Source of the DNA: Pontiella desulfatans
GTDB taxonomy: Bacteria > Verrucomicrobiota > Kiritimatiellia > Kiritimatiellales > Pontiellaceae
Reading direction: 5' to 3'
DNA length: 64,000 nucleotides
NCBI RefSeq assembly: GCF_900890425.1
Contig: NZ_CAAHFG010000004.1
Span: 912,330 to 976,329 of the forward strand
Both the position numbers and the translations under genes were made by a program. Shown one piece after another: positions 31,359 through 63,861 of this stretch (the first letter of the stretch is position 1; each line of letters begins with the position of its first letter). The notes under the pieces were generated by a model, which searched no databases, had not been told where the DNA came from, and worked only from the letters and a program-made list of their open reading frames with translations.

Positions 31359-31592
31359 ATGAACACATTTATCATTTCGTTGGTTGCGCTGGTGGTGGGC
31401 TATTTCATCCATGGCGCGTTTGTTGAAAAGTGTTTTGGCATCGAGCCGGCCAGGGAGCCCCCGGCCACTGCTCTGGATGGCCGCCGTCTGCTCCTCCTAC
31501 ATCCTGATTGCCCCGAGGGCATCAAGCTCTCAACCGCCATTCTTTCCCTCGGCCTCTTTTTCAAGACGATCCGCAAGAAGGAGGGCGAATGA
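31359..31592 (+). pseudogene. CstA-like N-terminal fragment, probably an internally deleted remnant (or tiny membrane protein)
   Basis: The 77-residue product begins with a membrane helix and VGYFIHGAFVEKCFGIEPAREPPATALDG. This closely resembles the start of carbon-starvation (CstA) peptide/pyruvate transporters, up to the point where they continue ADGVDY. The rest (about 35 residues) matches no later CstA segment I know, although ILSLGLFFKTIRKK could be a C-terminal membrane end. Full CstA proteins have about 480-700 residues. The frame has GGAGAG before its ATG, and its stop overlaps the GH27 ATG (ATGATG), so it is probably still translated and coupled. Confidence 0.45.
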
Positions 31593-43525: not shown

Positions 43526-43578
43526 CAATCCTCTCTTCATGGGTGTTGCCGAATAAACGCAATGCGATCGGCGGTTTG

Positions 43579-43605
43579 GACGCAAGCGGCATGCACGCTT
43601 GCGTC
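43579..43605. repeat. Inverted repeat and motif-like site in the leader of the GH150-like gene
   Basis: GACGCAAGC (43579-43587) and GCTTGCGTC (43597-43605) are perfect complements around GGCATGCAC, 54 nt upstream of the ATG. Next to it on the minus strand, GGAATGGCGCAT (about 43613-43624) recalls the start of the shared motif. It could be an operator or a hairpin at the end of the upstream gene. Confidence 0.5.
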
Positions 43606-47507: not shown

Positions 47508-49340
47508 TCAGTTTTTCGCCGCCTTCATTCCCTCGGCGGCCTGGAACCCGGTGTTCTTTTTGATCGTTACGCTTTCGGTATCCACCGTCTGCGTGATGCG
47601 CAGCGGGGCAAAGCCTTCCGCGTCGTTCTTGACGATGCTGACGTTGCTGCAGTAGTCGAGCTTGATGGCTTCGCCTTCCTCGATGGCGGGGTAGTCGGTG
47701 CTGAAGACCATTTTGTTGCCGGAGATGGTGAGGCCTTCGCAGGAGCGCGCCTCCACCATGTGGCCGTTGAAGCTGCGGATGGTGTTGTCGATGAACTTAA
47801 TGTTGCGGTGGTAGCGGCCTTCGCCCATGTGCTGGGTGTCGTTGAACAGCGGGGAGGCGAGCAGGGGATAGCGGTTGTCGCACGCAAAGCCAATGTTGAC
47901 GAACTCGTTGTTGCGGATCACCACGTCTTCCACCGCGCCGGACTCGTACCACTTGTTGTTGTCGCCCTCGATCAGGATGCCGTGCATCTGCGAGGAGAGG
48001 TGGTTGTCTTCGATCAGCACCTTGCCCTTGGTCGTGACCAGGATGCTGCGCGCGCGGTTTTCGCGGACGATGTTCTTGCGGAAAACCAGATCCGGATACC
48101 ACGTCAGGTTTTCGACCGAAAGGGGCACATTCGGCATGACCTCGGGAACCTCCTTGAGCGTCAGGACAAAACGGTGTTCGTTGAGGATGCGGATGTCTTC
48201 AATCGTGGTTTCGAACAAGGGCAGGACGGTCAACCGCGACATCAGGCAAACCTTGTCGCCGGGTTCGCCGAAGGTCAGGCCCCATTGCTGGAAGTGGCTG
48301 ATGTTGCAGAGGAGTTCCTTGTTGCCCAGGTATTCCGCCACCGGCACATACGCGCCGTGCACGTTGATGGCGTCGTCGAGCATGTGCTCGAACACGCAGT
48401 TTTCGACCTTGATCAGGCCCTTGCAACCGATGTAGTGCGTGGCGTCGGCGCGGGTGGAAACGATGCGCTCCTCGGTGGAGGTGACCTTCATGCCGTCGAG
48501 CGTAATGTTTTCGGTGCGCTCGACGATGAGCCCCATGCCGCCGGCATCGTGGACGACGACGTTCTCGATCTTCAGGTCTTTCGAGTTGGTCACGTGGATC
48601 GCCGGGCAAAGGCGGCTGGTCGGATGGACGCCGTGGGCCACGAGGATGGTGCCGACCGGCGGCGGCTCCTTCTTGAAGCCCCCCTCGATCTTGATCCGGT
48701 TCTTGCCGGGCTTGGAAACCTTGATCGGCTTCCAGCTGTTGAGGGCGTAGCGGTCGGTGTCGTAGATGGGCGCCCGGGTTTCCGGATCCCAGACCATGTT
48801 GGAACCAATCGGGTCTTCCTGCCCCATGCGGTCGAACAGCAGCTGCCCGTTCTTGATTTTGTGGGGGTAGCGTTTTTCATCCAGTTCGAACACGGCGGCT
48901 TTCTTTTCCACATCACGCTCGATGCATTTGAGTTCGGCGTGGAAGGACTGTGCCCAATCGATGGAAAAATTCCTGAGCGTTATTCCTTCAACACGTTCGA
49001 TGGTGAACGGAACCACGCGGCCGTGCATCATGAACATCGAGCCGTTGCCCTCGATGGTGATGTTCCGGTGGTTGAACAGTGGAAAGACCATGCGCTTGAG
49101 GCCGTTGTCGTGGTTGGCCACGGCGCGGTGCATTTCGAGCGCGTTTTCGGCATGGAACTCGTAGTCCCCTTTCGGGAAGCTCAGCGTGACGCCCGGTTCG
49201 TTTTCGATGCTCTTGATTAAACTGTTCAGGGCATACGTGCCGTCTTGCCCGGGTACAATGCCGTGTTCGGCCACGTTGACGATGCGGCCTTCCGCCACGA
49301 GTGCCCCCAAGGCAATGGTGCAAGTTATCAGTGTTTTCAT
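47508..49340 (-). CDS. Secreted GH110 exo-alpha-1,3-galactosidase
   Basis: The 610-residue protein has a signal peptide (1-17). A right-handed parallel beta-helix carries many short repeats (NITIEGNGSMF, LKIENVVVHDAGGMGLIVER, ITLDGMKV, KVENCVFEHMLDDAINVHG). Asp322-Asp323 in LDDAINVHG are the hallmark of GH110. GH110 enzymes remove terminal alpha-1,3-galactose with inversion, and a marine member has been linked to lambda-carrageenan metabolism. It is followed by the GH150-like genes; site F lies about 100 nt upstream. Confidence 0.88.
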   Translation of the reverse strand: MKTLITCTIALGALVAEGRIVNVAEHGIVPGQDGTYALNSLIKSIENEPGVTLSFPKGDYEFHAENALEMHRAVANHDNGLKRMVFPLFNHRNITIEGNGSMFMMHGRVVPFTIERVEGITLRNFSIDWAQSFHAELKCIERDVEKKAAVFELDEKRYPHKIKNGQLLFDRMGQEDPIGSNMVWDPETRAPIYDTDRYALNSWKPIKVSKPGKNRIKIEGGFKKEPPPVGTILVAHGVHPTSRLCPAIHVTNSKDLKIENVVVHDAGGMGLIVERTENITLDGMKVTSTEERIVSTRADATHYIGCKGLIKVENCVFEHMLDDAINVHGAYVPVAEYLGNKELLCNISHFQQWGLTFGEPGDKVCLMSRLTVLPLFETTIEDIRILNEHRFVLTLKEVPEVMPNVPLSVENLTWYPDLVFRKNIVRENRARSILVTTKGKVLIEDNHLSSQMHGILIEGDNNKWYESGAVEDVVIRNNEFVNIGFACDNRYPLLASPLFNDTQHMGEGRYHRNIKFIDNTIRSFNGHMVEARSCEGLTISGNKMVFSTDYPAIEEGEAIKLDYCSNVSIVKNDAEGFAPLRITQTVDTESVTIKKNTGFQAAEGMKAAKN

Positions 49341-49557: not shown

Positions 49558-50961
49558 TCAACGCTTCGCCTCCAGCAGCGTTTTCAGCTTAGCCACGAGC
49601 TCCGGCTGCTTTTCGGCAATGTTGAGGGTTTCTTTTTCGGGGGAGGTGTGGTCGTAGAGTTCAACGAAGCCGTCTTTCTGGTGCACGATGATGCGGTGGG
49701 TGTCGGTGCGTAGCGTTGCTTTGTCGGCGCGGTAGGCGAGGGCGGTGTGGCCGGCGGCGGAGGGGTCGTTGAGCTGCGGCAGCAACGATTCGCCTTGGGC
49801 AAAGGTTGGTTTTTCAACGCCGGTGAGGTCGCACAACGTCGGGAAGAGGTCGAGCGTTTCCACCACGGCATCGGTTTTTGCGCCGGGATGGCCGATGCCC
49901 GGATAGTAGACGATGAGCGGCGAGTGGAGCGCTTCCTCGAAGAGGCTGTGCTTGCCCCAGATCGCATGTTCGCCCAGGTGCCAGCCGTGGTCGCCCCAGA
50001 CCACGACGATGGTGTTTTTGTCTGCGCCGGTTGCCTTCAGGGCGGCCAGAATGTCGCCGACATGCTTGTCGGCATAGGTGACGCAGGCGGCATAGTGCCG
50101 GCGCACCTCTTCGGAAAAGGCGGGGTCTGTGCGCGGGTCCTTGCCCCAGCGGTTGTATTTCATGAATTCGCCGGAGCTGTGCCAAGTGGTTTTTCCCTGC
50201 GGCTTTTCCGGATGCGGAACCGGCGGGAGCTGCACGCCGTTATAGGGTTCCATGTATTTTGCCGGCGCGCCGAACGGCAGGTGGGGCTTGATGAGGCCGA
50301 TGGCGAGGAAGAACGGCTTGCCCGCTTCCGCAAGCTCGCCGAGCTGCCTGATGCCCTCCTCGGCAATCAGCCCGTCGGGATAGATGGTGTCGGGGCCTGC
50401 CGTGCTTTGGAACAGATCCATTTTGCCGGCCTGCTTGCGGATTTCGCCATGGGCCAGGCCGTGCATGGCGCCAACGGGGGTTTCCCACTCGCCGCACGGC
50501 ATCAGGTGCCGCGACCACGCATTCGGGATTTCAATCTTCGAATCATCGTTCCAATCGTTTCCCCCGCGCCCGCCGGGATGGTGCGAAACCTTGCCGACGG
50601 ACACCGTGGTGTAGCCGTGGGTGCGGAACCATTCCGGCATGCTCGGCGGAACCGAGGCCGGTTCCTTTTCCACTTGCGCGGCGCGTTTGAACAGGGCGTC
50701 GTTGCCGGGCGCGCCATAGCGGCCGGTTAGCAGCGTGCAGCGCGACGGGCCGCAGCTCGGGGCGTTGACATAGTGGCGGTGGAACGGGCGGCCCAGCTCC
50801 GCCAACCGGTCGATGTTGGGCGACTCGACATAGTCCGCCCCGAACGCTTTCAGCTCCGGGCGCAGGTCGTCGATGCACAGCAATAGGACGTTCCGGGGCG
50901 GGGGGGCGGCAAGGGCAGCAATGGCGGATAGTGTAATTAGCAAAACGATCTGTTTTTTCAT
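49558..50961 (-). CDS. Secreted iduronate-2-sulfatase-like S1 sulfatase
   Basis: The 467-residue protein has a signal peptide (1-19). The metal site [15 protein letters not shown] and the formylglycine Cys70 in [16 protein letters not shown] are those of the iduronate-2-sulfatase/choline-sulfatase-like branch. [23 protein letters not shown] and [13 protein letters not shown] follow. The ATG at 50961 was chosen where the signal peptide begins; the frame continues upstream without support. It may desulfate 2-O-sulfated sugar, as its relatives do, but this is inference. Confidence 0.9.
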
Positions 50962-51099
50962 GAAGGCTCCATTTATGGGATGGGACGGTGGCGGGAAACC
51001 ATAGTGGACAGAGTACACAAACCATCCGGCGCAAACCCGCCAGCGGCAGGGGGGGGTGCCGATGCCGTTTGCCGGTGTGGCGGGTCGGTTGGCGGAATC

Positions 51100-51127
51100 G
51101 CGCATTTCTTTTGCGGGAACGTATATT
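51100..51127 (+). promoter_or_regulatory. Shared motif (site G) and -10 box for the 51270 gene
   Basis: GCGCATTTCTTTTGCGGG (51100-51117), then 4 nt, then TATATT (51122-51127). This is the cleanest copy of the motif. The leader to the 51270 ATG is long (about 135 nt) and ends in GAGGAG. The 50962-51099 part of the gap carries only a weak minus-strand motif (about 51014-51040). Confidence 0.6.
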
Positions 51128-51269: not shown

Positions 51270-53717
51270 ATGAAGAAATCACGAAAGCGAACAACATTTG
51301 CAATGGGCGCATGCCTGATGCTGGCCGTTTCGGCCCAGGCCGCGACATATGAGTTTACGTCGGGCGAAGGTTTCACGAACGGTGCCCTTGCCGGGCAGGC
51401 GGGCTGGTCTGGTGACAACGAGAACACCGTGAACACGAATGATGGCGGCAGCGTATTGTTCCCCGCCGCGGCAGCGTGGCGATCCAATTATGCCGCCGAC
51501 TCGTTCGATTCGGCCAACAACCGGTTCACGGCGGCCGCCGACTTGTCTTGGGTTGAGGCTGCCACCAACGGCGGCAACGATGTGGCCAGTATCCAGATCC
51601 AAGGCGGTGGGAATTCCATTCGCGGCTACATCACCCGCGTACAAAAGAAAAACCCCGAAGGCCACTCGGTGCTGTATGCCTTGAATATCAAGAACAGCCT
51701 GGATCAGGCCTGGGAATACGAAAACGTGAGCCAATCCGTTTTCGGTGTAAACGATGTTGATGATTTTGAAACCGACCCGATGCACCTCTCCATGACGCTG
51801 GAACGCGGCGCAAGCTCCAACGAGTGGGCCTATACCCTGTCGGTTTCCAATCGGGTCAGCGGCGACACCGTTGAGGTCTCCGGCGTAGACAAAACCAGCA
51901 GCAGCAACTTTTATGCGGCGGCAAGCTATGTTGCCGGCATCAATTCTTCCCGGGACGATTCAACCAGCGGATGCAGCAACCGCATGGTGCATGCCTTTTA
52001 CTTCGATGCAACCTATGTTGCACCGCCGGGGCCGACCATTGTTCGTTGGGGAACAGCGGGGGGCGATGTCAACATCGTGACCAACGGAACCCAGGACTTC
52101 GTACCCTATCCGGCATACACGGCATACGGCGACAATCGCGAATGCAATCCCATCATTGGAACCAACTACTATGCGGATGCAACCGACCGTTCACCGGTAT
52201 TCAACCATGCCGGTTCCAACGGATCGAACACCAAGAGCGTGACCGAAGACGGCAGTGGCGACTTTATTGCCTCGGCCAAGAACCAGCTGGCCTATCGCAA
52301 GATCGTGACGTGGGAAAACTTCCTGGTCGATAACCACACGCTGGACAGCCTTGCGGTTGAAACGCGCCGCAGCGCCAACAAAGGCGACGACTATTCCTAT
52401 TTCCGCTGGATCATCAAGAAAGGCACCGGCGAATGGTTTGCCAGCGCCGAGGTTCCCACGACTGCAGGCTTTGCCCTCTACGAAGAAAATGATCCGGCTG
52501 CAATCAGCTGGTACAGCTTCAACCCATACCAACAGATCGACAATGTGACTTTCGCATCCAACTCCACGGCCATTACCATGGATGATGTGTTCGTTGTTGG
52601 AACCTTCTCTTCGTTCACCAACTCGGATGGCGGATATTGCGCGCTCCAGACCCGCTACTTTGAAGCCACCGCCAATCCCGGCCAGGTTTCCGAAACCTTG
52701 CTGCAGTGGGGCGATACCGGGGGCGACACCAACCTGGTTTCGGCGACGCAGCAGTTTGTCGACCGCGGTACTTCCGATATCGAAAACTACACCGGCGGCA
52801 CAACCTCCACCCCGCCGATCGGCGTTGACTATTACCCGGACAATACCGACCGTTCGCCCGTCATCAATGCGGCGGTCAACCTGAAATGGGCCAACACCAT
52901 CGGAATTGGCGATGGCGATGACTCCATATACTACGCCCACAACAATGCGAACCTGGAAGGGATGTTTGTGTGGGAAGACTGGACCCAGGATCCGGCGGAA
53001 GTGGTTGCTCTTTCCATGGAGATCAAGCGTTCGGGTACAGGTAACTCTAACACGGTTGTGCGCTTCCTTGTTGAGAATAATGTAGGAGACTGGTTTGCCT
53101 CGGAACCGCTTGAAGTGACGACCAAGGATGCCTACACCAGCGTTGTGGGCAATGCGGGCGGTATGACCTGGTTTGAGTTCACCCCAATGAACAGCAAGGT
53201 GGTGGGCTTTGGGGCGGTGGCCTCGCCGGCGATGACCAATATTGTATCGGCCGGCTACTATGTGCAGGCCCAAGGCCCGGGGGCTTGGAATGCCGTGAAC
53301 ACGCGATTGTTCCGGGTTTCCGGCTATGCCGAAAGCACTGAACCTCCCGCATCGTCCTACGAAATCTGGGCGGCTCTCAAGGGCCTGACTCCCGGCGTGA
53401 ACGATGGCAAGGCCGACCACGCCGACTCCGATACCCTCAACAACTGGGGCGAGTATGTCTTTGGCGGCGATCCGCTCGACGGTGGAAACATCGGCTCGCA
53501 GCCCGTGCTGGGCGCCGGGGCCGGCGAATATGTCTGCTACCTCATCGGCGATGACGCCGTACGGGCCGTCGTGAAGGCCACCGACAATCTGACCATGCCG
53601 AATTGGCAGCCCATCGCCACCAACGATGTCAGCGCCACCGACGGCGTGCTTGGCGCCTACACCAACGCGGTCGATACTTCAGGCGGCAAGCTCTTCCTGA
53701 AACTCGAAGTGGAATAA
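51270..53717 (+). CDS. Secreted modular protein with two novel tandem modules, no catalytic domain
   Basis: The 815-residue protein has a signal peptide (1-24, ending AQA) and an N-terminal lectin-like beta-sandwich (about 25-250). Two tandem copies of a ~210-residue module follow (256-467, 477-686); each has W-G-x-x-GGD near its start, then YYxDxTDRSPV and WFAS. A C-terminal tail (about 690-815) has DHADSDTLNNWGEYVFGGDP. The same module occurs once in the GH42-like protein at 58500. No acid/base pair of a known hydrolase is evident; binding of polysaccharide at the surface is a reasonable guess. Site G and GAGGAG lie upstream. Confidence 0.75.
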   Translation: MKKSRKRTTFAMGACLMLAVSAQAATYEFTSGEGFTNGALAGQAGWSGDNENTVNTNDGGSVLFPAAAAWRSNYAADSFDSANNRFTAAADLSWVEAATNGGNDVASIQIQGGGNSIRGYITRVQKKNPEGHSVLYALNIKNSLDQAWEYENVSQSVFGVNDVDDFETDPMHLSMTLERGASSNEWAYTLSVSNRVSGDTVEVSGVDKTSSSNFYAAASYVAGINSSRDDSTSGCSNRMVHAFYFDATYVAPPGPTIVRWGTAGGDVNIVTNGTQDFVPYPAYTAYGDNRECNPIIGTNYYADATDRSPVFNHAGSNGSNTKSVTEDGSGDFIASAKNQLAYRKIVTWENFLVDNHTLDSLAVETRRSANKGDDYSYFRWIIKKGTGEWFASAEVPTTAGFALYEENDPAAISWYSFNPYQQIDNVTFASNSTAITMDDVFVVGTFSSFTNSDGGYCALQTRYFEATANPGQVSETLLQWGDTGGDTNLVSATQQFVDRGTSDIENYTGGTTSTPPIGVDYYPDNTDRSPVINAAVNLKWANTIGIGDGDDSIYYAHNNANLEGMFVWEDWTQDPAEVVALSMEIKRSGTGNSNTVVRFLVENNVGDWFASEPLEVTTKDAYTSVVGNAGGMTWFEFTPMNSKVVGFGAVASPAMTNIVSAGYYVQAQGPGAWNAVNTRLFRVSGYAESTEPPASSYEIWAALKGLTPGVNDGKADHADSDTLNNWGEYVFGGDPLDGGNIGSQPVLGAGAGEYVCYLIGDDAVRAVVKATDNLTMPNWQPIATNDVSATDGVLGAYTNAVDTSGGKLFLKLEVE

Positions 53718-53764
53718 GGCGATGGAGGGGCGGGTGCCACCCCGTCCGCCGTGCTTCGAACACG

Positions 53765-53790
53765 AACCCCGTCCCCGTGGCGGGGTTTTT
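53765..53790 (+). terminator. Intrinsic terminator after the 51270 gene
   Basis: AACCCCG / CGGGGTT with a 9-nt loop, followed by TTTTT. A GC-rich inverted stretch (53726-53748, GGGGCGGGT...ACCCCGTCC) precedes it. Confidence 0.75.
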
Positions 53791-53812
53791 CGTTTGGGCG
53801 CATGGCAAGATG

Positions 53813-53842
53813 GCGCATGTTTTTTGCCGCAATGGGTATGGC
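53813..53842 (+). promoter_or_regulatory. Shared motif (site I) for the second GH27 gene
   Basis: GCGCATGTTTTTTGCCGC (53813-53830), with a -10-like TATGGC at about 53837. It supports the downstream start at 53885, because a start at 53858 would leave almost no leader. Confidence 0.5.
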
Positions 53843-53884
53843 ATCGGAGGGTACGAAATGGTTCTCTTATCCGAGGAGCAAACA

Positions 53885-55465
53885 ATGGCCAATGCGATGG
53901 TCAAACAGGTTGGGAAGGAAGCACACGCCAACGACGCGTCGTTGGTCTACGATCCACCGTGCGGGGAGGGGAAATATATACTGACCCCGCCCGCATCGCC
54001 CCGGCCGCGCCTCCATGGGCCGGCGGTCTTCGGAGTCCGCCCCGGCGCGCCCTTCCTCTACACCATTCCGGCAACCGGGGAAAAACCGATCCGCTATTCC
54101 GTGGTGGGCCTTCCCGCCGGATTGCGCGTCGATGCGCAATCCGGCGTGGTTTCCGGAACCATCGAGGACCGCACGCCGCGTGAATATGCCCTGACGCTGA
54201 AAGCGGAAAACGAACGGGGAACCGCCGAAAAACCCTTCACCATTTTCGTGGGCGACACGATCTGCCTGACGCCGCCGATGGGCTGGAACTCCTGGAACTG
54301 CTGGCAGGGCGATGTGAGCCAGAAGCATGTGTACGACTCGGCCGTCTCCATGGTGACCCAGGGACTCCGCGACGTTGGATGGAGCTACATCAACATCGAC
54401 GATGCGTGGCAGGGCCTGCGCGGCGGCGAATTCAACGCCATCCAGCCCGATCCCGACAAGTTTCCCGACATCCAGGCGATGTGCAACGAAATCCATGCGC
54501 TGGGCCTCAAGGTCGGGATCTATTCAACGCCGTGGGTCACCACCTATGCCGGCCGCATCGGCGGTTCGTCCGACACGCCCGAAGGCGAGTGGAGCAAGGA
54601 GGTCCATGCCCCGGACGACTATCGCCCCTCGAAGGTGTCCTACCGGGTTGCCCCCTATGTGTTCGATGAAAACGATGCGGCGCAGTGGGCCGCCTGGGGG
54701 ATCGACTATCTGAAGTACGACTGGAGGCCGAACGATCCCGAAAGCACGATCCGCATGGCCGAGGCGCTCAAGGGCTGCGGGCGCGATGTGGTCTATTCCC
54801 TCTCCAACGGTGCGCCCATCGAGCATGCCGAACTCTATGGCCGCATTGCCAACTGCTGGCGCACCGCAGGCGATCTGAAAGACCGGTGGGACCAGGACGG
54901 GTGCCACCTCAACATTATCGAACAGTGGGAGCAGCACCGCAACTGGATCGAGCAGGGTATGCGCGGCGGTCCCGGCCATTTCCCGGATCCGGATATGCTC
55001 GTGGTCGGCGAGTTGGTGACCAGCCACGAAGCCGAGCATGCCATTGCGCCATCCCAGCTGACCCCCGATGAGCAGTACAGCCACATTTCGTTGTGGGTGC
55101 TCTGGGCGGCGCCGCTTTTGATCGGCTGCCCGATCGAAACCCTGGATGCCTTTACGCTCAACCTGCTGACCAACTCCGAGGTGCTCGAGGTGCACCAGGA
55201 TTCCGTCGCCGTGCCCGGCATCTCGGTGCGCATCCAGGATGGTATCGAAATCGTCGTGAAGGAGCTGGCCGATGGCGGCAAGGCGATCGGCCTGTTCAAT
55301 CTCAACGACGAGGCGCAGGTGGTGACGCTCGATTGGCGGGAGGCCGGCCTTGAAGGCAAGCAAACCCTCCGCGACCTTTGGCGGCAAACCGACCTCGGTG
55401 TTTTTGAAGATCGGTTCAGCGCGCGCGTCCGTTCGCACGGAGTAGTGTTGATTCGAACCCAATAA
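53885..55465 (+). CDS. GH27 alpha-galactosidase without recognisable export signal
   Basis: The protein of about 526 residues resembles the 31589 lipoprotein from VYDPP onward: the same Ig-like domain (LHGPAVFGVRPGAPFLYTIPATG) and the GH27 barrel (LTPPMGWNSWN, INIDDAW, DYLKYDWRPND with the nucleophile, CWRTAGDLKDRW with the acid/base, GGPGHFPDPDML). Its N-terminus (MANAMVKQVGKEAHANDAS) has no signal peptide or lipobox, so it may be cytoplasmic or may have lost its signal. The ATG at 53885 has GAGGAG 6 nt upstream; 53858, also with GGAGG, is an alternative but adds no signal. The next sulfatase starts 60 nt later. Confidence 0.85.
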   Translation: MANAMVKQVGKEAHANDASLVYDPPCGEGKYILTPPASPRPRLHGPAVFGVRPGAPFLYTIPATGEKPIRYSVVGLPAGLRVDAQSGVVSGTIEDRTPREYALTLKAENERGTAEKPFTIFVGDTICLTPPMGWNSWNCWQGDVSQKHVYDSAVSMVTQGLRDVGWSYINIDDAWQGLRGGEFNAIQPDPDKFPDIQAMCNEIHALGLKVGIYSTPWVTTYAGRIGGSSDTPEGEWSKEVHAPDDYRPSKVSYRVAPYVFDENDAAQWAAWGIDYLKYDWRPNDPESTIRMAEALKGCGRDVVYSLSNGAPIEHAELYGRIANCWRTAGDLKDRWDQDGCHLNIIEQWEQHRNWIEQGMRGGPGHFPDPDMLVVGELVTSHEAEHAIAPSQLTPDEQYSHISLWVLWAAPLLIGCPIETLDAFTLNLLTNSEVLEVHQDSVAVPGISVRIQDGIEIVVKELADGGKAIGLFNLNDEAQVVTLDWREAGLEGKQTLRDLWRQTDLGVFEDRFSARVRSHGVVLIRTQ

Positions 55466-55525
55466 TTTGGTCAGATTCGACGCTCCCGTCCCCATTTACA
55501 GATATGGATAACCAAAGGTTTTGAT

Positions 55526-57067
55526 ATGAAGATGTTTCGTTCACTGGCACTGTTTCCCTTGTTTATTGGCTTGGCGGTCTCTGCGGCGCAGAGGCCCAAC
55601 GTGGTCATCATCTATGGCGACGACGTTGGCTTTGCCGACATCGGCATCAACGGCTCGGTCATGATTCCAACGCCGAACATCGACCAGCTGGCCCTGGAAG
55701 GGCTCAACTTTACCGACGGCCACTGCTCGGCGGCCACCTGCACGCCGTCGCGCTTCTCGATGCTCACCGGCCTCCTGGCCTTCCGCCACAACGCGCGCGT
55801 GCTGCCGCCCGACGCCCCGCTGCTCATCCCGACCGACAAGCTGACGCTGCCCAAGCTGTTCAAGCAGGCCGGCTACCACACCGCCGTCATCGGCAAGTGG
55901 CACCTCGGCATCGGAACCCCGGGCGTCCAGACCGACTGGAACGGCGACGTCAAGCCCGGGCCGCTCGAGATCGGCTTCGACTATTCCTTCCTGCTGCCCT
56001 CCACCAACGACCGCGTCCCGTGCGTCTACCTCCGCAACCACCGCGTTGTCAACCACGACCCCAACGATCCGATTCACGTCGGCAAAACGCTCAACGATGT
56101 TCAGAAACCCGGCAGCACGCAATATCCCGATGGCCGAACCAACCGCGAGTCCATGACCGTCTACCAGAGCACCCACGGGCACAACGACAGCGTCATCAAC
56201 GGCATCGGCCGCATCGGCTACATGTCCGGCGGAAAGGCCGCGCTATGGGACGAGCAAACCATCTCCGATGTCTTTGTCGACGAAGCCCACGCCTACATCA
56301 AGGAGCACAGGAAGGAGCCCTTTTTCCTCTACTTCGCCTCGCAGGATATCCACGTTCCGCGCTATCCGCACCCGCGCTTCCAGGGCGCCACCCAGCTCGG
56401 CCACCGCGGCGACGCCATGGTGGCGTTCGACTGGACGGTCGGCCAGATCATGCGCGCGCTCAAGAAATACGACCTCGAGCAAAACACCATCGTCATCTTT
56501 TCCTCCGACAACGGCCCCGTCTACGACGACGGCTATGCCGACGGCACCACGGTGCTCTGCTCGCAGGAGGAATCCGACCGCGGGCACGATGCCTCCAGCG
56601 TCTGGCGCGGCGGAAAATACCAGATCTACGAAGGCGGCACCCGCGTACCGTTCATCATCCGCTGGCCCGCCAAGATCAAGCCCGGCCTCTCCCCGGCCAT
56701 GGTAAACCAGGTCGACTTCATGGCCTCCTTCGCCCACCTGCTCGGCGTCGAGCTGCCCGAAAACGAAGCCATCGACAGCCGCAATATCCTCCCCGCCTTC
56801 CTCGGGGAGACCAAGGTTGGCCACCAATACATGGTCGAGGAATCCTTTGGCCTCGCCCTGCGCGACCGCCACTGGAAATATATCGAACCCGTCCAGCCCA
56901 AATGGCCCCAGGGCCGCGACCCCATCGAGGAATCGCTGCACGACCTCAACGCCGATCCCGCCGAGCAAGTCAACTTTGCCCCGCTCCATCCCGAAAAGGC
57001 CGAAAACATGAAAGCCATCCTCAATAAACTACGCACCGGAACCGGCGCCCGCGGAACGATTCAGTAG
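55526..57067 (+). CDS. Secreted S1-family arylsulfatase
   Basis: The 513-residue protein has a signal peptide (1-20). The metal site IIYGDDVGFAD, the formylglycine Cys72 in AATCTPSRFSMLTG, VIGKWHLGIG and IFSSDNGPVYDDG (metal and active-site residues) are those of arylsulfatase A-like enzymes. The C-terminus is short. It is probably cotranscribed with the GH27 gene and ends at a terminator. Confidence 0.92.
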   Translation: MKMFRSLALFPLFIGLAVSAAQRPNVVIIYGDDVGFADIGINGSVMIPTPNIDQLALEGLNFTDGHCSAATCTPSRFSMLTGLLAFRHNARVLPPDAPLLIPTDKLTLPKLFKQAGYHTAVIGKWHLGIGTPGVQTDWNGDVKPGPLEIGFDYSFLLPSTNDRVPCVYLRNHRVVNHDPNDPIHVGKTLNDVQKPGSTQYPDGRTNRESMTVYQSTHGHNDSVINGIGRIGYMSGGKAALWDEQTISDVFVDEAHAYIKEHRKEPFFLYFASQDIHVPRYPHPRFQGATQLGHRGDAMVAFDWTVGQIMRALKKYDLEQNTIVIFSSDNGPVYDDGYADGTTVLCSQEESDRGHDASSVWRGGKYQIYEGGTRVPFIIRWPAKIKPGLSPAMVNQVDFMASFAHLLGVELPENEAIDSRNILPAFLGETKVGHQYMVEESFGLALRDRHWKYIEPVQPKWPQGRDPIEESLHDLNADPAEQVNFAPLHPEKAENMKAILNKLRTGTGARGTIQ

Positions 57068-57099
57068 CACCTGCGGCAAACAGCGCGGATGGTAGGCAG

Positions 57100-57127
57100 A
57101 AAACCATTTCCCGGTGCGGGTGGTTTT
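57100..57127 (+). terminator. Intrinsic terminator after the 55526 sulfatase
   Basis: AAAACCA / TGGTTTT outer stem and CCCG / CGGG inner stem around a GTG loop, followed by a T run, 32 nt after the stop. Confidence 0.75.
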
Positions 57128-57256
57128 TTTGAACCACTGATTCACACCAATGAACACGAATTCCCCTCTGCGTCCGCACCGAAAAATAGTCATGTCGTTA
57201 ATCGTCTTGTGAAAAAAAAACTGGTTGGAGGGCGAGGTTCCATCCGAGCCGTTCGT

Positions 57257-57302
57257 GGAGGGGCGGACGCTGCCCGCCCGGGCGCACGGCGTGCGCCCCT
57301 CC
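57257..57302. repeat. GC-rich nested palindrome
   Basis: Outer arms GGAGGGGCG / CGCCCCTCC and an inner perfect hairpin GGGCGCAC-GGC-GTGCGCCC (57280-57298). It lies in the 500-nt gap after the sulfatase. It has REP character. Confidence 0.65.
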
Positions 57303-57477
57303 ATCCGCCGCTTCCCCTTCGCAACCCCACCGTCGATCCTCGCCGAGCTGGCTCTTTCGGAATCGCCGGCCTCCAATCCTTGGAAAGAAACATGAATAAT
57401 AACATGGCGACGGGGGCTCGTGCTCCATACCATCCCCATAGATAAGCCGGACGAGCCGGGGTGGCTCAGTCCAACAA

Positions 57478-57548
57478 GATTTTATCCTCCTGCTCTTCAA
57501 CCTGCTTCAACAGAGAGGACGTTTGGGGAAGCAGGAGGGATAAAATCC
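57478..57548. repeat. Inverted repeat just upstream of the 57570 gene
   Basis: Arms GATTTTATCCTCCTGCT (from 57478) and AGCAGGAGGGATAAAATCC (57530-57548) pair over about 17 positions with one bulge. It may lie in the promoter/leader of the next gene. The rest of 57128-57569 has no gene. Confidence 0.65.
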
Positions 57549-57569
57549 TAATCGTTCGGTACATAAAAA

Positions 57570-57899
57570 ATGAATGATGTTTCAGAATATACGTTGCTAG
57601 ATAAATTCAGCCTTCATCAAGGGAAGATCGCCTGCGATTTATTCGAAGAGAAACGCATTGATTTTCAAATCGAAATGGCTGACTCCCCACATCAGGATAT
57701 TAAGCCATGGCAATCGTTATGGGGAGGATCATTTGGGACAGAAGAAACCTCTGTAAATATCTATGTTCTGAAATCGTCACTTGAACAATGCATCACAATT
57801 CTAAATGAACATAAAAATAAACCGAATAAGGATCAAAAAGGGGGGCGGGCGTGCTTCAAGGAAGCACCACTAGAGCCGGCTAAGGTGCCGGTCTTTTGA
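57570..57899 (+). CDS. Small DUF2007-like protein
   Basis: The 109-residue protein has a compact N-terminal part (LLDKFSLHQGKIACDLFEEKRIDFQIEMAD... SVNIYVLKSSLEQCITIL) like DUF2007 putative signal-transducing proteins (about 70 residues). The last ~25 residues are coded by a region of two terminator-like hairpins, so the natural protein may once have ended earlier. The function is unknown. The gene is AT-richer than its surroundings. Confidence 0.5.
   Translation: MNDVSEYTLLDKFSLHQGKIACDLFEEKRIDFQIEMADSPHQDIKPWQSLWGGSFGTEETSVNIYVLKSSLEQCITILNEHKNKPNKDQKGGRACFKEAPLEPAKVPVF
57851..57897 (+). terminator. Double hairpin terminator overlapping the end of the 57570 frame
   Basis: A perfect hairpin GTGCTTC-AAG-GAAGCAC (57851-57867) is followed by CCGGC-TAAGGT-GCCGG (57876-57891) and TTTT. 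Both lie within the annotated C-terminal codons. Confidence 0.6.
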
Positions 57900-57982
57900 T
57901 CTTTGTAAAAAAGGATTATTCGGGTCCGACTGTGCGGACGGCCGACAGAGCCGGGGCGGCTATGGATGGTTGCCCGTTTGGC

Positions 57983-58201
57983 GGGGCAGGCGGGACGCCC
58001 GCGGTACAGCAATCGGTACGCCGGCGGTGCGGCGCCATTTCCCGACGGGTGCAAGAAAGCCCCCGCTCCGTTGGAAGCACCCCTCGATCCTGTTCGCTCG
58101 CGCCAACGGATGAGGCCGGTTTCGGGCAGAAGCATTATACGGCAGAAAGCTTCGGTGCTGGGATCGGGTCGCACGGTGGGGCAGGCGGGCCGCCAGCGAT
58201 G
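57983..58201. repeat. Degenerate direct repeats in a non-coding stretch
   Basis: GGGGCAGGCGGG at 57983-57994 and 58178-58189, each followed by a similar CGCC-GCG stretch (about 20 of 24 positions match), lie in a 600-nt region (57900-58499) with no convincing gene. Open frames through it have biased composition (GGxxGxPPA type) and are not supported. Confidence 0.5.
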
Positions 58202-58414
58202 CCGAAAAAAGATCAGGCCGCCTAAGTCGTGTTATTCAGGAAAGGTGATGCGCGCAAAAATGCGATGGCTTTGTACCTTGGCTCTACGTAGATTTTAGAG
58301 GCAACGAATGCATGGAACACGAAGTGAGAGTGCCAGCTTCAGTTCAAGAGGTTTTTGATAAATTGTTTTCGGCCTTTCCGGCGGTTGCGGTCGGTAGGGC
58401 GGTGTGGCGCAAAC

Positions 58415-58446
58415 GCGCATGTTTTTTGTGGGTTCCTCTATATGAT
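58415..58446 (+). promoter_or_regulatory. Shared motif (site J) and -10 box for the GH42-like gene
   Basis: GCGCATGTTTTTTGTGGG (58415-58432), preceded by GGCGCAAAC, then TATATGAT (58439-58446) as a -10. The start at 58500 leaves a leader of about 47 nt. Confidence 0.6.
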
Positions 58447-58499
58447 TCTTGCCGGTTTCATGTTTGATTAAACCGATCCGGCCATGGGCGGCCGGTGAG

Positions 58500-61400
58500 A
58501 TGATGGGCTATATGAAGGCAATTTTGGTTCTACCCTTTTCGTGTTTGTTCGCAACCGTGTCGGCGATGGCCTGGACGGGGGGGACGAATGAGGCGGATTG
58601 GATCCAGCTGACGAACGAGGTTGCGGCGAGCCGCGCCCAACTCACGAACCTGATGGGCCAGGCCGATGCGGCGGGGTTGAACACGGATTATGCCTATGTG
58701 TCGCAGGTGGTCATCGACCGGTTCCAAATCTACGCCACGTATGACTATGAGCATCCGGAGGAGGTCCATGAGGCGTTCACGAATGTCTGGTGGAACAACA
58801 AGGTTCCCGACCCGGACTTTCCGATCAACCTGCCGTTCGATGAGATGCAGTCGTGCCTGGAGGTTTCGAGCAATGCGATTGCCGAGCTTCAGGCGCAGCT
58901 GGCCACGAACCGGGTGCTGCAGGCGCCGGTTGATTTCACGACGGGAACCATGGCCTTCGGGGCGGGTTCCTGCCTGCGCAACGGCGAACCGGTTTTCCCG
59001 AGCGACTTCACGTGGATGCCGGACGATGAAGATCTGCTGGTGGCCTTTGGCCGCATGGGCGGGACCTACTATGCGCTCTCCGACATGTCGGACTCCAACA
59101 CGGTCAAGGCCAGCGCCATCAGCAGCGATTCCGAGAGTCTGGCCGGGCAGACCGCGCGCAACCTGGCGTTCGGCCAATATTTCATCGGGCACAAGGCGGC
59201 GGGCTGGATGAAGGAGGAGTATCCGGAAATCGAGGATGGAGGGCGGAACTTCGTGACCTACGATACCGACAGCCCGCTCATCCGGGCATGGTTCACCCAA
59301 CTCTTCGGGCAGTATATCCCGCCCGTTTGCGCGGCGCAGGGCGACCAGCCGCGCATGCACCTGCTGGCGAACGAACCAAACTTTGCCACCCGCGAGGGGG
59401 GCTGGCTGGCCGAGAACGGGGTGTCGGCCAATACGATGGACGGGTATGAGGAGTGGATCTCCGAAAAATATGCGACGATCTCCAACCTGAACGCGACCTA
59501 TGGAACCTCCTATGCCGACTTCCATGCGGCGCGGAACGGCATGACCCTGCCGATTCCCGTTTCGTTGCAAGGCCGTCCGGCCTGGTACGACTGGTGCCGC
59601 TTCAACATGGACCGGGTCAACGATTTCTTCCAGTTCCTCAAGGACGGAGCCCAGGGCAACGATCCGGACGGTGCGCCGGCAACCATCAAGATTTTGGGCG
59701 GCCAGCTGGCCAATTCGTGGCGCGACGACGGGATGGACATGGAATTTCTCGCGAATCTGATGGATGTGACGGGCGCGGATCTGCACGTCGTTCCTGCGGG
59801 CGCGACGGTCATCCAAAGCAAGCTGGACATGGAGTGGGCCACCGACTATGCGCTCGACTGGCGCGAGCAGTCGATGATGCTCGATTTCTATAAATCGCTC
59901 CATCCAGACAAGCCCTACTACGATTCCGAATGGCACGGCTTCGCCACCGGGAAGTGGCGCCATTTTTCGATGGATCGCGACTATGTGCGCTCTTCGCTAT
60001 GGCTCGGTTTCTCCCACGGCATGAACGGTATCCAGTCCTGGGTGTGGGGACGGAAGAACACCGGTAGTTTCCTCGATGTGAATTCCGACTTCATCGGCGA
60101 TATCCTGACGCAACCGACCGCGCTCGATGCCTACGGCCGGGTGATGAAGGAACTCAATGCCCACGCGGGTTCCGTGACGGCGCTAGCGAAGCAGGAGCGC
60201 CACTTCATGGTCTATTATTGCGGGGAGGCGGCGATTCAGGATCTTACCTATGTGGACGGAATCGAAGAGGTCTACGAGGCGTTGAAATTGCTCAACCTAC
60301 GGGTCGGCTTCGCAACGCCATCCACCATCGGTTCGCTGGCCACCAGCCAGGCCGTGGTTGTTCCGCCCACCGCATTCATCTCGGATGCGAGCCACGATGC
60401 CCTGGTTGCCTTTGAGCAGTCCGGGGGCCATGTGGTGCTGGTGAACGGCGCCTCGGCCAGCTTCGGCACGAACGAGCTGGGCTTTGCCGTCTCGGGCAAC
60501 ACGAACCTGGCGCCCTATGCCGAGGTGGCCTTTGGCGATCCTTCCGCCATGGCCGACGATCTCGGTGCCGCGCTCGCGCCACTCAAGCCGGCCGTTCCGG
60601 TTTTGGCAACCGTTACGGGTGGCGCATCGCAACCGGCCTACGGCGTTTTCGTGAACCAGGTACAGGAGCCCGGAAGCGGGGAAACCACGCTGGTGCTGAT
60701 CAACGTCCACAAGGAGCCGCGCACCGTTGCCTTGTCGCTCGCTTCCGGAATGGGGGCGGACTACCGCAACCTGGTGACCGGCCAGCTGGTTCCGGACACG
60801 CATGCGTTGCAGCCCTACGACGTGCTTTTGCTCAGGACGGAAAATTCCGCGCCCCGGGTTGCCGGAACGATCGTGCAATGGGGCGAGCCCGGGGGGGATG
60901 ACGGCATCGTCACCAATGGCCAGGATTTTTCCAACCTCTACAACACCTACAACGTGGGCAACGTGGCGAGCCCGCTCCAGGGGCCGGACTACTATCCCGT
61001 CAGCGCCGGCCGCTCACCGGTTTTCAACCATGCCGCCAATAAGGCCTACAACGTGAAGCGGATCGGCGACGGCGGAGCGGAGGGCGACTACATCAACACC
61101 GCAAAGAACGATGCCGACTATTCCGCCATGGTGGTTTGGGAAAACTTCATCGCCAACCATGGCACGCTGGAAAGCCTGGAGATCGAGACCCGCGTCAGCA
61201 ATGCCACCGACACGCCATCCCAGTTCCGCTGGTTGATCCAAAAAGGCGGAACGGCCTGGTATGCCAGTGCCCAGATCGACACGACCGGCTCCTATGTATC
61301 CTACTCCAATAATGCGCCGGAAACGGTGGACTGGTACCACTTCACGCCTTTCGTTGGAGGAACGGCCTCCGTTGGAGCCAAGGCCAGCATTGATCTTTCG

Positions 61401-61892
61401 GACATCTCGGCGGTCGGCTACCATGCCACGTTCCAGCAACCCGGCACGGTGGCCTACCGGGCGAGCCAGACGCGCTACTTCAAGGCCACCGCAAGTTCCG
61501 CTGTTGCTGCATCCGGGTGGGACGGTTTTGTTTCAAGGTATGGACTGAGCGGGGTTTCAACCCATGACCAGGATGGGGATGGGAAGTCGGATCTCTACGA
61601 ATATGCCCTCGGAGGGAATCCGACCAACCCGGCCGACCAGGGGACGGCGCCGTTCATCGAATACCATCCCGGCAACACGGTGGGCTGTTTCAATCTCGAA
61701 GTCGATAGCCCCGTTCCCGGCATCACCTATTGGCCGGAATGGACGGACAACCTCGTGACCGGTTCGTGGAGCAGCGCCTGGAACCTGGAGACCAACCACC
61801 CGGCCATTCCGGGCTATACCCAGGCCGAGCGCCGGCTCGATGGCGGCACCAACAACCATCTTTTTTTCCGGTTGTCCATTACCCAGCCGTGA
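58500..61892 (+). CDS. Secreted GH42-like (clan GH-A) beta-galactosidase-type enzyme with accessory modules
   Basis: The 1130-residue protein has a signal peptide (about 1-24). A TIM-barrel region (about 140-540) resembles GH42: acid/base Glu292 in LLANEPNF and nucleophile Glu477 in YYDSEWHG. A GH42-type trimerisation-like domain (about 565-700) and a short beta domain (to ~780) follow, then one WG-type module (789-998) shared with the 51270 protein. A C-terminal domain (1005-1130) has a DQDGDGKSDLYEYALGG loop and ends FFRLSITQP. A marine carrageenan-active relative (GH167-like) is possible. The start at 58500 follows GGTGAG. Confidence 0.7.
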   Translation: MMGYMKAILVLPFSCLFATVSAMAWTGGTNEADWIQLTNEVAASRAQLTNLMGQADAAGLNTDYAYVSQVVIDRFQIYATYDYEHPEEVHEAFTNVWWNNKVPDPDFPINLPFDEMQSCLEVSSNAIAELQAQLATNRVLQAPVDFTTGTMAFGAGSCLRNGEPVFPSDFTWMPDDEDLLVAFGRMGGTYYALSDMSDSNTVKASAISSDSESLAGQTARNLAFGQYFIGHKAAGWMKEEYPEIEDGGRNFVTYDTDSPLIRAWFTQLFGQYIPPVCAAQGDQPRMHLLANEPNFATREGGWLAENGVSANTMDGYEEWISEKYATISNLNATYGTSYADFHAARNGMTLPIPVSLQGRPAWYDWCRFNMDRVNDFFQFLKDGAQGNDPDGAPATIKILGGQLANSWRDDGMDMEFLANLMDVTGADLHVVPAGATVIQSKLDMEWATDYALDWREQSMMLDFYKSLHPDKPYYDSEWHGFATGKWRHFSMDRDYVRSSLWLGFSHGMNGIQSWVWGRKNTGSFLDVNSDFIGDILTQPTALDAYGRVMKELNAHAGSVTALAKQERHFMVYYCGEAAIQDLTYVDGIEEVYEALKLLNLRVGFATPSTIGSLATSQAVVVPPTAFISDASHDALVAFEQSGGHVVLVNGASASFGTNELGFAVSGNTNLAPYAEVAFGDPSAMADDLGAALAPLKPAVPVLATVTGGASQPAYGVFVNQVQEPGSGETTLVLINVHKEPRTVALSLASGMGADYRNLVTGQLVPDTHALQPYDVLLLRTENSAPRVAGTIVQWGEPGGDDGIVTNGQDFSNLYNTYNVGNVASPLQGPDYYPVSAGRSPVFNHAANKAYNVKRIGDGGAEGDYINTAKNDADYSAMVVWENFIANHGTLESLEIETRVSNATDTPSQFRWLIQKGGTAWYASAQIDTTGSYVSYSNNAPETVDWYHFTPFVGGTASVGAKASIDLSDISAVGYHATFQQPGTVAYRASQTRYFKATASSAVAASGWDGFVSRYGLSGVSTHDQDGDGKSDLYEYALGGNPTNPADQGTAPFIEYHPGNTVGCFNLEVDSPVPGITYWPEWTDNLVTGSWSSAWNLETNHPAIPGYTQAERRLDGGTNNHLFFRLSITQP

Positions 61893-62064: not shown

Positions 62065-63861
62065 ATGAAAAAGGATTTATCTCTGGTTTGGATCGTTGTG
62101 GCCATGCTGGCGCCACTGGCGGCCAGCGCGTTGCAGGTGGTGGAAATCAAGCCGGGCGAGGGCGACATGACGCCCGTCGTTCGCGAGGCGATTGAACAAG
62201 CGACCGATGCGGAAGTGAAGCTGGTGTTTGCGAAAGGGAAATATTTTTTCCGGCCAGACCATACCAAACAAAAATATTGCACCATCACCAACCACGACAA
62301 CGGGCTCAAGAACATCGCTTTCCTGTTCGATGGCTTCAAGTCGGTGGAGATTGAGGGCCATGGTTCCGAGTTTATTTTCCATGGGCAGATGTTGCCGTTC
62401 CTCTTCGAAAACTGCGGGAAGGTGACCGCGAAGAACATGGTGATCGATTGGGATATCCCGTTCTGCTTCCAGGGCGAGGTTGTGGCGGTTAACGAGGCCG
62501 AGGGCTGGCGCGATATCAAACCGGCCACCCAGGGGTTCAACTGGTCGGTGAAAAACGGCCATCTGGTCTATCCGGACATCGATGGCTTTTCCTATGCGTC
62601 CGTTGGCAGCACGCTGGCGTTCGACCCGGAGACCAAGGAGGTCTCCCATGGCGCGTGGGACTTCACCAGCCAGCCGACCGAGGTTGAAGAACGCGGGGAC
62701 GGCATCCTGCGTTTCCACGAAAAGCTGAAGCATTGGCCCAAGGTTGGGCAGATCCTCAACTCCAAGGGGAAGATGAACCGCTATGCCCCGGCGTTCCATG
62801 GCAAGTCCTCCAGCAACCTGACGTTCGATGGCATCGTGATCCACCATTGCCTAGGCATGGGCTTCCTGCTCGAGCGCTGCGACACCGCCACCCTTTCCAA
62901 CGGCGGCATCCATGTGCGCGAAGGCTCCGACCGCGTCGTGTCCATCATTGCCGATGGAACCCATTTCGCGAATTGCAAAGGCGACATCCTGGTTGAAAAC
63001 ATGCGCTTCAAGGGCATGCTCGACGATAGCACCAACGTGCACGGAACCTATGTTGCGGTCGATGGCGTCCTCGACGAAAAGACCGTCCGCATTCAGCTCA
63101 TGCACTTCCAGCAGCTCGGCTTCGAGTTTGCGGGGGTGGGCGACGAAATCTGGTTCATCCACCAGCCCAACCCAACCCGCGGCGCCGTGAACACGGTCGA
63201 AGGCGTGAAGGTCGTCAACGACCGCTTCATCGAGTTGACCTTCAAGAACCCGGTTCCGGAAAACCTGGTGAAAGGCGATGTGCTCGAAAACAAAACCTGG
63301 AACCCGAAGTTCACCATGCGGGGCAACAGCTTCGAAAAGCACCGCGCCCGCAATGTCGTCATCAAGACGCCCTTGCCGATCGTGATCGAAGACAACGACT
63401 TTTCCTCCCACATGTCGGCTGTGTTCCTGCGCGGCGAAACCTTCTACTGGTTCGAGTCCGGCAACGTCGAGGACGTGCTCATCGCGAACAACCGTTTCAA
63501 GGATTGCGCATCGAGCGGCATGGAGCACGCGGTCGTGCTCGTCACGCCCAGGCTTGGGAAAACCTTCGATGCCACCGTCCCGTTCGATAAAAACATCCGC
63601 GTCATCAACAATACCATCGAGACGTTCGATAACCGCATCCTATGGGCCGACCGGGTGGATGGCCTGCTCTTCAAGGACAACACCATCAAGCAGACCCGCT
63701 CCTACGATCCCCAGTGGAAGGATGCCCACCTGTTCGACTTCACCCATTGCCGGAACGTCCGGTTGATCGGCAACACCTACATCGGTGACCACCATAAAAC
63801 CGTGCTCGCCGACGAGGCCTCGAAAAAAACGCTGAAGATCAAAGGCAACAAGGGATTTTAG
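62065..63861 (+). CDS. Secreted GH110 exo-alpha-1,3-galactosidase, second copy
   Basis: The 598-residue protein has a signal peptide (1-22). A beta-helix with GH110 signatures follows: NHDNGLKNIAFLFDGFKSVEIEGHGSEFIFHG, MRFKGMLDDSTNVHGTYV with Asp320-Asp321, and VIEDNDFSSHMSAVFL. It shares its layout with the 47508 protein but is clearly diverged, so the two may act on different linkages or sulfation states. Only a weak form of the shared motif (about 61990-62005) lies upstream. Confidence 0.88.
   Translation: MKKDLSLVWIVVAMLAPLAASALQVVEIKPGEGDMTPVVREAIEQATDAEVKLVFAKGKYFFRPDHTKQKYCTITNHDNGLKNIAFLFDGFKSVEIEGHGSEFIFHGQMLPFLFENCGKVTAKNMVIDWDIPFCFQGEVVAVNEAEGWRDIKPATQGFNWSVKNGHLVYPDIDGFSYASVGSTLAFDPETKEVSHGAWDFTSQPTEVEERGDGILRFHEKLKHWPKVGQILNSKGKMNRYAPAFHGKSSSNLTFDGIVIHHCLGMGFLLERCDTATLSNGGIHVREGSDRVVSIIADGTHFANCKGDILVENMRFKGMLDDSTNVHGTYVAVDGVLDEKTVRIQLMHFQQLGFEFAGVGDEIWFIHQPNPTRGAVNTVEGVKVVNDRFIELTFKNPVPENLVKGDVLENKTWNPKFTMRGNSFEKHRARNVVIKTPLPIVIEDNDFSSHMSAVFLRGETFYWFESGNVEDVLIANNRFKDCASSGMEHAVVLVTPRLGKTFDATVPFDKNIRVINNTIETFDNRILWADRVDGLLFKDNTIKQTRSYDPQWKDAHLFDFTHCRNVRLIGNTYIGDHHKTVLADEASKKTLKIKGNKGF

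Follow-up and report, generated by a model that had tools for sequence, protein, structure and literature searches.

A jelly-roll module that accompanies lambda-carrageenases in Pontiella desulfatans: a candidate carrageenan-binding family

A module of about 215 residues occurs three times in a 64,000-nucleotide stretch of the Pontiella desulfatans genome (the window; positions 912330-976329 of contig C4 in the source genome, G000), twice in tandem in a secreted, non-catalytic protein of 815 residues and once in a secreted glycoside hydrolase of about 1130 residues. On balance, we favor the proposal that this module is a non-catalytic domain with a jelly-roll fold resembling the carbohydrate-binding modules (CBMs) CBM4 and CBM61, and that it binds carrageenan, a sulfated gel of red seaweeds, most likely in the lambda form, so as to retain enzymes and capture polymer at the cell surface. 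Glycan binding by an unclassified module had been suggested in a preliminary description of this DNA. It is the best-supported reading and holds in part: we infer the binding from the predicted fold, the fusion partners, the surrounding locus and the co-occurrence with lambda-carrageenases of glycoside hydrolase family GH150.

Homology and predicted fold of the module

The three copies lie in frame in two open reading frames, where the preliminary description had placed them (Table 1). Aligned with MAFFT, copies 2 and 3 share 30% and 42% identity, respectively, with copy 1, and 44 columns are invariant over the whole length. Local alignment scores of 197, 421 and 277 stand 27, 61 and 37 standard deviations (SD) above the means of shuffled sequences (~37–38, SD ~6), a margin by which the copies are homologous. 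The motifs listed for them earlier are present, except that copy 1 has TWENF instead of [VF]WE[ND][FW] and SWYSF instead of WFxF. Signal-peptide-like N-terminal sequences, seen directly in both host proteins, agree with the secretion ascribed to them.

An AlphaFold (AF2) model of the isolated hydrolase copy is an all-beta sandwich predicted with high confidence (predicted local distance difference test, pLDDT, 93.6; predicted template modeling score 0.91). Its closest solved folds are mostly CBMs, led by CBM4-2 (Z 10.8, 3.3–3.5 Å over ~150 residues), a match that indicates a common predicted fold, not family membership. Further matches include the CBM of an alkaline mannanase (Z 10.0), CBM61 bound to beta-1,4-galactotriose (9.7) and CBM27 (8.8), and Foldseek agrees on neighbors of CBM type. 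The clear homology of the copies extends this predicted jelly roll to the other two, so the structural dissimilarity that would have spoken against a shared module is not seen. A model of the whole 815-residue protein, built from five sequences, has a mean pLDDT of 54 and is usable for strand order only; in it, both tandem copies show the same strand order. MAM, gingipain-adhesin and Eph domains are intermixed among the fold matches; the fold class is thus mainly, not solely, carbohydrate-binding, and the fold alone is no proof of function.

The same model bears on whether the module might itself be catalytic, for example a lyase or esterase acting on sulfated galactan. Its ~215 residues exceed the length of most CBMs, and D74 and E92 are conserved. 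We nevertheless consider a catalytic role very improbable, as the fold matches are binding modules and not catalytic jelly rolls, the invariance of E92 is not complete across the module alignment, and the hosts already have full catalytic domains.

No known family accounts for the module. CBM models in Pfam (CBM4_9, CBM22, CBM61 and others) gave no match to the three copies at E≤10 or to 36 family members at E≤1; the sole CBM-like Pfam match among these 36, to Mann_GBD_bact, was not significant (best E 0.065, 2/36). Pfam and NCBIfam searches of the 36 yielded nothing convincing, and scans of protein P0001 and the modules with the same databases gave no significant match, in keeping with the earlier remark that this is not a recognized CBM. 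Searched against PDB sequences (hmmsearch, E≤10), the family profile returned just one spurious match, to a designed propeller; phmmer searches of the PDB with P0001 and with GH150 from the window returned nothing useful.

Fusion partners, co-occurrence and the wider family

The preliminary description knew the module from two proteins only. In the 8.66-Mb source genome the close copies are indeed these three alone, with two weaker relatives elsewhere on contig C1 and a few further distant ones found by a more sensitive profile. Beyond it, we surveyed 58 nearby genomes and 387 genomes of the phylum Verrucomicrobiota, and found that the module belongs to a widespread family associated with carrageenan enzymes, lambda-carrageenases among them. 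A strict-pattern scan of contigs found only Pontiellaceae and one Kiritimatiellales metagenome-assembled genome; the profile searches showed the family to be wider. The three-copy profile detected relatives in 10 of the nearby genomes, with up to 18 in one genome, and a 36-member profile detected them in 30 of the phylum genomes.

The module and GH150 share one open reading frame in seven proteins from five genomes (two in G016, one each in G013 and G021, one in G210 and two in G246), which include Pontiella and two unrelated Verrucomicrobiota genomes. It is N-terminal in six of these and C-terminal in one (L067, 1529 residues), and G016 has one fusion of each kind. In the lambda-carrageenan locus of several Pontiella, GH167 carries the module C-terminally. 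Other hosts are four sulfatases, with the module N-terminal and accompanied by Ig-like domains (He_PIG, Big_9), and a SASA esterase-domain protein with two copies; the 815-residue protein and its orthologues hold two or three modules and no catalytic domain. With its predicted fold, the module thus appears as a discrete, independently folding unit that adjoins, at one end or the other, the catalytic domains of GH150, GH167, sulfatases and esterases. In a tree of 44 modules, those attached to GH150 fall in at least three places separated by supported branches. No fewer than three independent label changes are needed on this tree, so the module was probably fused to GH150 on more than one occasion. 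The GH167 module of the window and the module at the C-terminus of one GH150 form a group (98/95), pointing to exchange of the module among carrageenan enzymes.

We propose that a module on a GH150, GH167 or sulfatase domain would hold the enzyme on its polymer and so raise the local enzyme concentration. Tandem modules, two or three in the 815-residue protein and its orthologues, would serve to trap polymer or oligosaccharide on the surface of the cell, and single modules in PEP-CTERM proteins may do likewise. Copies from carrageenan loci have extra conserved residues (Q4, K80, Y85, K126 and R203), and K80, K126 and R203 are kept across the carrageenan-associated set. Conserved in carrageenan-associated copies, the W91-E92 pair, R49, K80, W131, W156 and R203 (numbered as in copy 3) are candidate contact residues.

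Two other roles would also suit an appended domain. The module could be a protein–protein docking domain that joins the locus enzymes to one another or to the 815-residue protein as a scaffold. This arrangement would fit the tandem modules of a secreted protein that has no catalytic domain and whose gene neighbors that of the module-bearing GH167, and related folds include the protein-binding MAM, Eph and adhesin domains. Docking is unlikely, however. The putative scaffold and the enzymes bear the same type of module, and no distinct domain is evident that could be its complementary partner. Being joined repeatedly to a single catalytic family, at one end or the other, is a typical trait of CBMs, and the top fold matches are mostly CBMs. 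A passive spacer or fold-stabilizing domain without a ligand, like many bacterial Ig repeats, would agree with the Ig-like company that the module keeps in sulfatases, and its conserved positions could all be structural. This is improbable, as the module lies near a terminus as often as internally, the carrageenan-locus copies have their additional conserved residues, and the module follows GH150 and GH167 and not the remaining secreted enzymes, which number in the hundreds in these genomes. A generic Ig-like filler is disfavored by the same link.

Co-occurrence extends the association to whole genomes. With close modules defined by E<1e-40 and strong GH150 by E<1e-130, the genomes that have one are exactly those that have the other: the same 7 of the nearby relatives, and the same 7 of the phylum genomes, two of which are members of other families and lie outside the class. 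In G007 (same genus) and G028 (same family) the only GH150 is a divergent one, and neither genome has a close module. Of 16 module loci that are not among the orthologous lambda-carrageenan loci, 7 have a GH150 or GH167 within 20 kb (p ~3e-6 against random placement, a value that general clustering of secreted-enzyme genes would weaken, and whose 20-kb limit was set after seeing the data).

The distribution also bears on the possibility that the ligand of the module is a sulfated exopolymer made by the bacterium itself, in which case the module would keep secreted carrageenases at the cell. Pontiella is described in one report as making sulfated, glycosaminoglycan-like exopolymers (PMC7356697); the wider family consists mainly of PEP-CTERM proteins, whose sorting system has been described as associated with exopolysaccharide (PMC1569441). 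Against this, the close module is missing from congeners without a strong GH150 (their exopolymer production was not checked) and accompanies GH150 in genomes of other classes (G210, G246), and we rate this possibility a little below docking and barely above the spacer. A combined version, slightly more doubtful again than the spacer, would have the module anchor GH167 and the lambda-carrageenases in the sulfated exopolymer that the cell makes or in its PEP-CTERM surface coat, one fold serving both self-matrix and food polymer; if so, hydrolysis would take place inside a self-made sulfated layer.

Returning to carrageenan binding, several observations weigh against it. Seven of the nine co-occurrence genomes across both surveys belong to one genus, and the exact co-occurrence probabilities, though tiny, are naive, their significance being inflated by shared ancestry and locus synteny. 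Nine of the 16 additional module loci are not near a carrageenase, and the known GH150s of Pseudoalteromonas and Flammeovirga, searched by plasmid tblastn, are without the module. MAM and Eph-receptor protein-binding domains occur in the fold class at Z 8.5–10. With a net charge of −5 to −22, the modules are acidic on the whole. Despite the conserved K80, K126 and R203, this is not the first expectation for a highly sulfated ligand, and it is a mild point against an electrostatic mode of binding. Finally, many PEP-CTERM proteins of the wider family occur in genomes without detected GH150, so carrageenan binding cannot be the whole family's role.

These distant members are mostly proteins of 250–310 residues with a C-terminal PEP-CTERM signal. 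They are related to the module in sequence, but they are single-domain proteins unfused to enzymes, of undescribed function, and mostly from genomes without detected GH150; the carrageenan-locus module looks like a specialized branch of a broad Verrucomicrobiota surface-protein family. Divergent modules occur in other settings too. A 2060-residue protein in G348, from another Verrucomicrobiota family, combines one with PKD and InlB-like repeats (L131:1884-8063), and this genome has a divergent GH150 on a different contig. In G198, a genome without detected GH150, adjacent small proteins with divergent modules, at least one with a PEP-CTERM end, form a cluster (L135:4113-9735) that represents a local expansion.

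The lambda-carrageenan locus

By its gene content, the window is a lambda-carrageenan locus (Table 1). PF25290, PF25291 and PF25292 all score above cut-off and place its lambda-carrageenases in GH150. The order of the genes for the 815-residue protein, GH27, sulfatase and GH167 with module is kept in G000, G016, G024 and G027, and partly in G021 and G018. The module-bearing hydrolase had been described as GH42-like. It is a glycoside hydrolase with a Pfam GH42 match, but of just 4e-9, and a full-length match to GH167 replaces that label: similarity spans query residues 19–756 (6ptm, E=7.4e-69), and the NEP and SEWH/TEGH glutamates line up. Because it resembles BovGH167 over the full length and has both catalytic Glu residues, the window enzyme is assigned to GH167, as are its orthologues. 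Lambda-type oligosaccharides lack 3,6-anhydrogalactose. GH167 is a family of carrageenan-active exo-carrageenases that free beta-neocarrabiose from carrageenan oligosaccharides (PMC6923384).

Table 1. Features of the lambda-carrageenan locus, in window coordinates
Feature	Position	Strand	Basis or remark
Sulfatase adjoining GH150 pair	38883..40376	-	Pfam
GH150 lambda-carrageenase, without accessory domain	40733..43585	-	PF25290 2.7e-193, PF25292 4e-132, PF25291 1e-35
Second GH150 lambda-carrageenase	43650..47447	-	Pfam
N-terminal beta-domain of second GH150	46728-47393	-	Unannotated, beta-rich; occupies position of module in relatives
GH110-type (GLAA-B) alpha-1,3-galactosidase homologue	47508..49340	-	PF23763, PF23764
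Sulfatase	49558..51105	-	PF00884 1.5e-46
Secreted non-catalytic protein, 815 residues	51270..53717	+	Signal peptide, N-terminal beta-domain, 2 tandem modules, C-terminal shared domain
N-terminal beta-domain of 815-residue protein	51342..52034	+	Sequence homologues in relatives
Module copy 1	52035..52694	+	MAFFT alignment, genome searches
Module copy 2	52695..53369	+	MAFFT alignment, genome searches
C-terminal domain (~115 residues) of 815-residue protein and orthologues	53370..53717	+	DxDxLNNxGEYxFGGxP plus beta
GH27-type alpha-galactosidase homologue	53603..55465	+	PF16499, PF17801
Sulfatase	55526..57067	+	PF00884 6.7e-54
GH167-type host reading frame, ~1130 residues	58449..61892	+	Likely start near 58512, with signal peptide
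GH167-like catalytic region	58569..60863	+	6ptm E=7.4e-69, 9whd (GH167) E=3.4e-68
Putative acid/base Glu codon (ANEPN)	59373-59375	+	Alignment with BovGH167 catalytic Glu (PMC6923384)
Putative nucleophile Glu codon (DSEWH)	59928-59930	+	Alignment with BovGH167 catalytic Glu (PMC6923384)
Module copy 3	60867..61520	+	Between catalytic region and C-terminal domain; AlphaFold pLDDT 93.6
C-terminal domain (~124 residues) of GH167 host	61521..61892	+	Common to GH150, sulfatases, other secreted enzymes
Second GH110-type (GLAA-B) homologue	62065..63861	+	Pfam

Other domains accompany the module in these proteins. Pfam gave no match to the 815-residue protein. Standalone PEP-CTERM homologues of its N-terminal beta-domain are immediate neighbors of GH150 genes in G024 and G027 (L056:1364-2227, L057:1305-2213), which suggests a surface-display version, and the N-terminal beta-domain of the second GH150 likewise has standalone PEP-CTERM copies (L042:6340-7122, L133:1987-2757). 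Comparison of the module with these two accessory beta-domains by hhalign revealed no profile-level relation. The C-terminal domains of ~115–125 residues that start with DxDGDx...EYxxGGxP, two of which are listed in Table 1 and a third of which lies at 43653-44024 (minus strand), are found on GH150, GH167, sulfatase hosts and the tandem protein; they are internal in the sulfatase hosts, preceding the catalytic domain, and are perhaps sorting or anchoring domains.

At the other side of the locus, a 553-residue reading frame (37219-38880, minus strand) amid the sulfatase and GH150 genes has no Pfam match at E≤0.001. A homologue of the GH27 enzyme at the opposite end of the sulfatase cluster (31508-33160, plus strand) suggests that the carrageenan locus may extend out to ~31.5 kb in the window.

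Significance and comparison with known systems

A family that follows lambda-carrageenase across Verrucomicrobiota would be a candidate for a new CBM family and might serve as a probe for lambda-carrageenan. In genomes where sulfatases number in the hundreds and substrates are hard to assign, the module marks carrageenan loci and ties them to a large, unannotated family of PEP-CTERM proteins. We found neither this family nor a lambda-carrageenan CBM of this kind described in Pfam, NCBIfam, PDB sequences or the literature searched. It is most suitably classed as a candidate new CBM-like family of jelly-roll type, a placement relative to Pfam, NCBIfam and the PDB and not to CAZy families that lack Pfam models.

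Known CBMs of the CBM4, CBM22, CBM61 and CBM27 type share the predicted jelly roll (Z 8.8–10.8 over 130–153 residues), are likewise appended to glycoside hydrolases and can be tandem. The module differs from them in its 6–9% identity, the lack of a Pfam CBM match, a length greater by ~50 residues and its other enzyme partners. A porphyran-binding CBM (PDB 8xmz), which we take to be CBM99, is likewise of interest as a module for a red-algal sulfated galactan. It ranks 50th in Foldseek with a TM-score of 0.50 by target length, but has 7% identity to the module, and the profile matched no PDB sequences of this kind. The only characterized carrageenan CBM in the literature searched is the founder of CBM92, the carrageenan-binding module on the carrageenase Cgk16A of Wenyingzhuangia; other CBM92 members bind beta-glucan (PMC11039641). 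A W-E-x-F string is common to both, yet the CBM92 fold is a beta-trefoil that can hold as many as three WExF sites (PMC11039641), whereas the module is a modeled beta-sandwich with one WENF-type string per copy. No sequence match between the two was found; the module is set apart from CBM92 by fold and motif, not by a CBM92 profile.

At the level of the locus, the closest known system is the experimentally resolved lambda-carrageenan cascade of Pseudoalteromonas distincta, with GH150, two GH110, a GH2 beta-galactosidase and sulfatases; its description mentions no CBM (PMC12549532). The two loci are alike in their GH150, GH110-type and sulfatase content, but where Pseudoalteromonas (GH150, GH110A/B, GH2, S1_8, S1_15) uses GH2, the Pontiella locus has GH167 and GH27 instead.

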